25,030 nt of DNA from a virus. Location of the stretch: positions 1 through 25,030 of IMG/VR virus record IMGVR_UViG_3300037119_005032. One strand, given 5' to 3'. This document shows, piece after piece, positions 22,720 through 22,984 of this stretch (position 1 is the stretch's first letter; each line of letters starts with the position of its first letter). Below the pieces are notes generated by a model. It saw only the letters and a program-made list of their open reading frames with translations. It was not told where the DNA came from and did not search any database. The position numbers and the translations under genes were made by a program.

Positions 22720-22750
22720 CGCAGAGCGTAACGCTTGGGGACCTTTCGTG

Positions 22751-22787
22751 TGGACAATCCTGTCCAACTCATGTCTAACCCTGGACA
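22751..22787. promoter_or_regulatory. Four TGGACA half-sites at one-turn spacing
   Basis: Half-sites are TGGACA (22751-22756), TGTCCA (22761-22766), TGTCTA (22772-22777, one mismatch) and TGGACA (22782-22787). The centres are 10, 11 and 10 bp apart, so all lie on one face of DNA. They sit between integrase arm sites and overlap a minus-strand TATACT at 22787-22792. A repressor or excisionase array is the natural reading. Confidence 0.5.
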
Positions 22788-22792
22788 GTATA
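22787..22792 (-). promoter_or_regulatory. Candidate -10 of leftward promoter (TATACT)
   Basis: TATACT on the minus strand is close to the sigma-70-like consensus and stands in AT-rich sequence upstream of the leftward operon. No good -35 is found at 16-18 bp, where an arm site lies instead, so the promoter would need an activator or be weak. Transcription would start near 22780 and run through the TGGACA sites and the inverted repeat. Confidence 0.3.
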
Positions 22793-22850
22793 TGTGCTAC
22801 TCTGGTCCCCAAGTGGTCCCCAAACAGCCTCTGGCTAGGAGTCCTACCAG

Positions 22851-22896
22851 GACTGGGGGTCAAGAAGTCGCAGGTTCAAATCCTGTCAGCCCGACC
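22851..22896 (+). other. attP: attP core: 3' half of tRNA-Pro(GGG)
   Basis: The sequence folds as the last part of a tRNA: T33 and anticodon GGG (22854-22857), the 3' anticodon stem TCAAG, a variable loop AAGTC, a T-arm GCAGG/TTCAAAT/CCTGT (22870-22886), acceptor 3' strand CAGCCCG, discriminator A and CC. There is no D-arm or 5' acceptor strand, so it is not a working tRNA. Phages that integrate into tRNA genes carry just this 3' part so that the gene is rebuilt on integration. It lies 129 bases before the integrase start. A matching host tRNA-Pro(GGG) is the predicted attB. Confidence 0.85.
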
Positions 22897-22941
22897 TAAA
22901 AGCCCTAGTCAGAGGCATATTAGGAGCAGGCGGGGAAATTC

Positions 22942-22984
22942 TTGGGGACCATTGGGGACCTTGATTGGGGACCACTTGGGGACC
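22942..22984 (+). repeat. Right-arm integrase sites (four TTGGGGACC copies)
   Basis: Exact copies lie at 22942-22950, 22952-22960, 22965-22973 and 22976-22984, all in the same orientation, with starts 10, 13 and 11 bp apart. They sit between the attP core and the integrase ribosome site, so integrase bound here could also repress its own promoter. Confidence 0.78.

Follow-up and report, generated by a model that had tools for sequence, protein, structure and literature searches.

A putative tRNA-Pro(GGG) attP with seven repeated predicted arm sites beside a phage tyrosine integrase gene

What purpose is served by seven identical short repeats that surround part of a tRNA gene directly upstream of a phage integrase gene? 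We examined this question in a viral record of 25,030 bases, the whole of which is referred to here as the window. Comparison with related loci gives us considerable confidence that this DNA serves as attP for a temperate actinophage, whose tyrosine integrase would bind TTGGGGACC arm sites and a tRNA-Pro(GGG) core. It very probably represents a functional attP of lambda-type logic, which a phage of an actinobacterium most likely uses for insertion into the proline-tRNA gene of its host.

The repeat array, the tRNA core and the integrase

An exact-match search of the window found seven copies of TTGGGGACC between positions 22735 and 22984 and none in the rest of the 25,030-base record. One forward and two reverse copies lie to the left of the core and four forward copies to its right, with right-hand starts spaced 10, 13 and 11 bp apart, exactly as a preliminary description of this DNA had counted them. 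The seven repeats are very probably arm sites of the integrase, judged by the comparisons below, and were designated P1 to P7 with offsets taken from the anticodon loop. P1 (22735-22743, forward strand) lies at -118, the usual left-arm distance of tRNA-Pro phages, and a tentative degenerate partner, GTGTGGAC (6/8 match; 22748-22755, forward), lies at -105, where the chance of such a site at a spacing of 10-13 is about 4%. The inner inverted pair P2-P3 occupies 22804-22823 on the reverse strand (starts 22804 and 22815; offsets -49 and -38). To the right of the core are two predicted forward arm pairs, P4-P5 at 22942-22960 (starts 22942 and 22952; offsets +89 and +99) and P6-P7 at 22965-22984 (starts 22965 and 22976; offsets +112 and +123). 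Taken with one flanking base, the P2-P3 segment (22803-22823) repeats the P6-P7 segment (22965-22985) in inverted orientation over 21 bp without a mismatch. The inner inverted pair is the distinctive detail of the window attP, and it may have a role in int regulation or excision.

The attP core comprises 46 nt from the 3' part of a tRNA-Pro(GGG) gene, running from the anticodon loop to the CC of CCA (22851-22896, forward). No complete tRNA was detected in the window by ARAGORN, as expected of an attP half-core; a chimera of a host 5' half and the window core was called as tRNA-Pro(GGG), and the core thus showed both identity to the 3' part of the tRNA and restoration of the tRNA upon joining. 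At homologous prophage junctions the full tRNA-Pro(GGG) gene was found in four contigs (L132, L135, L138 and L139), and other junctions carried tRNA-Pro(TGG). These observations bear out the earlier proposal of an attP with a 46-base tRNA-Pro(GGG) core. The 3' 30 bases of the core were present in 21 IMG/VR stretches, and core ends or attP halves like those of the window were encountered in Giles, its relatives and many prophage contigs. Neither a prophage of the window phage nor a host genome bearing the exact 46-mer was found; the hosts seen depart from it at one or two variable-loop bases. The predicted strand-exchange (overlap) region is the anticodon loop CTGGGGG beside a core-type site TCAAG (22853-22859, forward), since identity between the phage and host tRNA begins there.

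An imperfect inverted repeat surrounds the core, with GCCTCTGGCTAGG at 22827-22839 and CCTAGTCAGAGGC at 22904-22916. It was noted that a CTCTGACC/GGTCAGAG-like motif, located at these same window positions, also occurs near the tRNA cores of several actinophage attP sites, among them those of L132, L136 and L156. As a shared accessory site near the core, CTCTGACC was rejected, recurring in some and not all tRNA-Pro loci.

The tyrosine integrase gene (23025-24074, forward; 349 aa) starts 40 bp past the last TTGGGGACC copy. Its product matches PF00589 (E 1.6e-20) with intact catalytic residues R192, K226, H296, R299, H322 and Y331, and its AF2 model (pLDDT 87.7) contains the core-binding and catalytic fold, with fold matches to Tn1549 Int (Z 22) and lambda Int (Z about 19). 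Residues 1-44, a putative arm domain, form a beta-beta-beta-alpha arrangement in the predicted structure. The top two VIA-align matches of the N-terminal piece were plant AP2 domains (Z 6.2), a match that is weak because the domain has only 48 aa, and P4-type integrase arm domains reached a Z of about 3. Foldseek with the same piece returned no significant E-values, and no Pfam arm-domain match was found in the integrase. The AP2-type N-terminal domain suggested earlier is therefore plausible but weakly supported. Pattern-based searches for close integrase relatives gave none in viral contigs and two distant matches only in genomes.

The genes around the cassette encode several small DNA-binding proteins. 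Four HTH_17 or MerR-like proteins were observed at 20759-22010 (reverse) and 24663-24902 (forward). The HTH_17 products of 21238-21627 (reverse; candidate excisionase or regulator) and 24663-24902 (forward; candidate excisionase) score above the NCBIfam TIGR01764 'excise' cut-off, so that the cassette is flanked by two or more candidates for the excisionase. Two further motifs were observed. At 22695-22719, between the divergent gene 22026-22676 and P1, the 10-bp sequences TGGAGCGACA and TGTCGCTCCA form a perfect inverted repeat around a loop of 5 nt, which is not a typical terminator because no T-run follows it. Inverted TGTCCA and TGGACA motifs at 22757-22791, between P1 and P2-P3, may be an operator or a site for the excisionase. 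Scanning of 22550-23200 revealed neither a promoter nor a terminator, the promoter scan being by consensus of the sigma-70 type only.

Arm-site geometry in phages at the same tRNA gene and in known systems

We compared the array with phages that carry a tRNA-Pro(GGG) core, recording where the repeats of each phage lie relative to the anticodon loop. These repeats were chosen by eye and k-mer count and are therefore likewise putative. The offsets were -129/-117 and +92/+104 in Giles, -115/-103 and +84/+96 in L136, -115/-103 and +104/+117 in L138, -91/-81 and +92/+102 in L137, and -127/-116/-105 in L147. Across Giles and the IMG/VR contigs the repeat sequences all differ and their positions are alike, from -129 to -81 on the left and from +84 to +117 on the right. 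The window copies at -118, +89 and +99 fall within these ranges, with the degenerate partner at -105. The window has two extra pairs, an inverted one at -49/-38 and another at +112/+123; the comparators lack arm sites at the P2-P3 position, which counts against an arm-site reading of that pair. A tRNA-Pro(GGG) core is also present in contig L022, where TTGGGGACCACTTGGGGACC stands at +139/+150 next to a tyrosine integrase; this contig shares the 20 bp of P6-P7, including the AC spacer. A left-arm partner was looked for in L022 and not found, and a compact pattern of left pair plus tRNA gave no match.

Giles resembles the window in its tRNA-Pro(GGG) core (95.6% over 45 bp) and in its paired putative arm sites on both sides. 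It differs in having TTGACCCC arms in direct pairs and an attP located 3' of int, with int pointing towards attP, whereas the window has the motif TTGGGGACC, an attP 5' of int and an extra inverted pair; the two integrases are only distantly related. Of the features of a Giles-type cassette, the window has the core and, for P1 and P4-P5, the arm offsets, but lacks the uniformly direct arm pairs, P2-P3 being inverted, and the attP position 3' of int. The window attP would thus work like that of Giles, and we do not file it as the same cassette.

Comparable layouts were encountered among cultured phages, with five to seven mixed-orientation sites upstream of int in HaveUMetTed, CrimD and Pixie. 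Upstream of int, HaveUMetTed, a cluster A mycobacteriophage, has seven copies of the 7-bp repeat AGGTCGC in both orientations, of which the last two immediately precede int, and its Int N-domain scored highest against that of the window among the comparators. It differs in its repeat, in having another tRNA-type core in the opposite orientation, and in the order of inverted and direct sites. L5 is also a cluster A phage, and HaveUMetTed stood in for it in the comparison. Several additional arm sites are described in L5, and the Giles pairs are described as direct (PMC3203893). In CrimD (K1) the left and right pairs are inverted across the core, and Pixie (K3) has a lone opposite site plus a left pair and three right sites, both with attP 5' of int (PMC3203893). 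The CrimD and Pixie repeats were re-found in this analysis, and the Pixie motif TTGGGTACAC resembles TTGGGGACC. Unlike the window, these two phages target tRNA-Lys and tmRNA, have fewer sites and lack an inner inverted pair between the left arm and the core.

Lambda has flanking P and P' arms and a heterobivalent integrase with an N-terminal arm domain (PMC4880445), features that are predicted, the arm domain tentatively, for the window as well; it differs in its five arm sites and its non-tRNA attB. In the window attP, Fis, Xis and IHF sites could not be assigned. Because CrimD, Pixie, Cluster J phages and HaveUMetTed show multiple or inverted layouts, the window attP lies within known diversity, and the earlier view that the number and asymmetry of its sites match no well-studied system was overstated (PMC3203893, PMC3706429). 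It represents a well-known kind of system in unusually clean form.

Recurrence of the motif beside integrases

Pairs of TTGGGGAC spaced 10-11 bp apart lay within 500 bp of a tyrosine integrase in 52/105 distinct contexts among the matches listed, compared with 0/33 for a reversed-motif control (Fisher test, 1e-8). Random positions in the TTGGGGAC loci were near a tyrosine integrase in 17% of cases, which is the fairer baseline there. Among exact TTGGGGACC pairs, three of five at a spacing of 10-11 bp were near an integrase, against 2/111 at other spacings. Pairs of the motif also lie next to the integrases of L013 and L085. In the viral scan, the spacing of most TTGGGGACC pairs was a multiple of 3, mainly 9, 18 or 27 bp, and these pairs, which lay away from integrases, are probably coding repeats. 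Together with the offsets at the same tRNA gene and the L022 contig, this recurrence supports the earlier identification of the repeats as predicted integrase arm sites.

Near integrases, 60/64 ORFs with a TTGGGGAC pair had it at the 3' end of int, among the matches listed. In many phages (L160, L228, L262 and others) the pair was observed to overlap the 3' coding end of int, with proteins ending in SPNVPK or RPQSVP. The idea that similarity of the Int N-domain tracks the arm motif was rejected, no covariation between the two being found; the N-domains closest to that of the window Int come from phages whose examined stretch lacks TTGGGGAC, which counts against the mechanism proposed below. 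It was also noted that L075 has dense GGTCCCC/GGGGACC repeats in both orientations at 4100-4330, with no integrase found nearby and an unrelated function likely. Searching the literature for the repeat as text returned unrelated papers only. TTGGGGAC is contained in an att repeat from pneumococcus (PMC8637289) and in a primer for the attL of an M. chelonae prophage (PMC8191103), neither being presented as an arm site.

Proposed mechanism, competing explanations and implications

In the proposed mechanism, the small N-terminal domain of Int would bind the TTGGGGACC arm sites and its core-binding and catalytic domains the tRNA-Pro(GGG) core. Int would bridge arm and core with the help of a bend in the DNA, probably made by mIHF or another host factor, and strand exchange is predicted where the tRNA-Pro(GGG) gene of the host encodes the anticodon loop. 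Upon integration the phage core would restore the 3' half of the tRNA, and the tRNA gene would therefore survive, with int ending up beside it. P1 and P4-P5, at the arm-pair positions of related phages, are the likely minimal set, and P2-P3 and P6-P7 would be additional, with a probable role in excision, in stabilizing the complex or in controlling how int is expressed.

A competing explanation divides the functions more sharply, with P1 and P4-P5 as integration arms and the inverted P2-P3 (perhaps with P6-P7, which ends 40 bp before int) serving mainly in Int repression of its own promoter or in excision set-up. We consider this a real, if minority, possibility. The inverted orientation of P2-P3, its displacement from the canonical left-arm position and the 21-bp perfect inverted repeat that it forms with P6-P7 around the core all speak for it, as do Cluster J phages, in which inverted sites resembling arm sites lie where int starts and have been suggested to serve autoregulation (PMC3706429). 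Against it, the consensus scan, of sigma-70 type only, found no promoter, and inverted pairs are ordinary predicted arm sites in CrimD (PMC3203893). A broader combined proposal seems to us rather unlikely: that many distantly related phage tyrosine integrases reuse TTGGGGAC, spaced by one turn, as a widespread arm-site word, and that the perfect inverted inner pair forms a built-in switch in this phage, through which Int would regulate its own expression or choose between integration and excision.

It is very improbable that a phage repressor or another regulator uses the repeats as operators and that they are not integrase sites. In favor of operators, several HTH_17 regulators are encoded nearby and the repeats flank a divergent intergenic region; yet TTGGGGAC pairs elsewhere track integrases and lie mostly at the int 3' end, an unexpected place for an operator, and among phages at this tRNA the repeats differ in sequence but keep the same core offsets. 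A chance or compositional repeat of a G-rich word, which the GC content of 66.6% might favor, was rejected as practically negligible by its recurrence in unrelated phages, by the absence of TTGGGGACC elsewhere in the record, by the ordered spacing and symmetry about the core, and by order-2 Markov simulations (n = 100) in which the top 9-mer count in 250 bp reached 5, and usually 3, against the 7 observed, any other 9-mer in the window having at most 5 copies per 250 bp, with the 5-copy word overlapping TTGGGGACC.

Read as a putative attP, the locus has several implications. Its seven identical copies make site number, spacing and orientation testable one at a time, and the core could be developed into an integration vector for those actinobacteria whose tRNA-Pro(GGG) matches it. 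The TTGGGGAC pairs beside distantly related integrases may additionally offer a simple sequence rule for finding attP in unannotated phage contigs.
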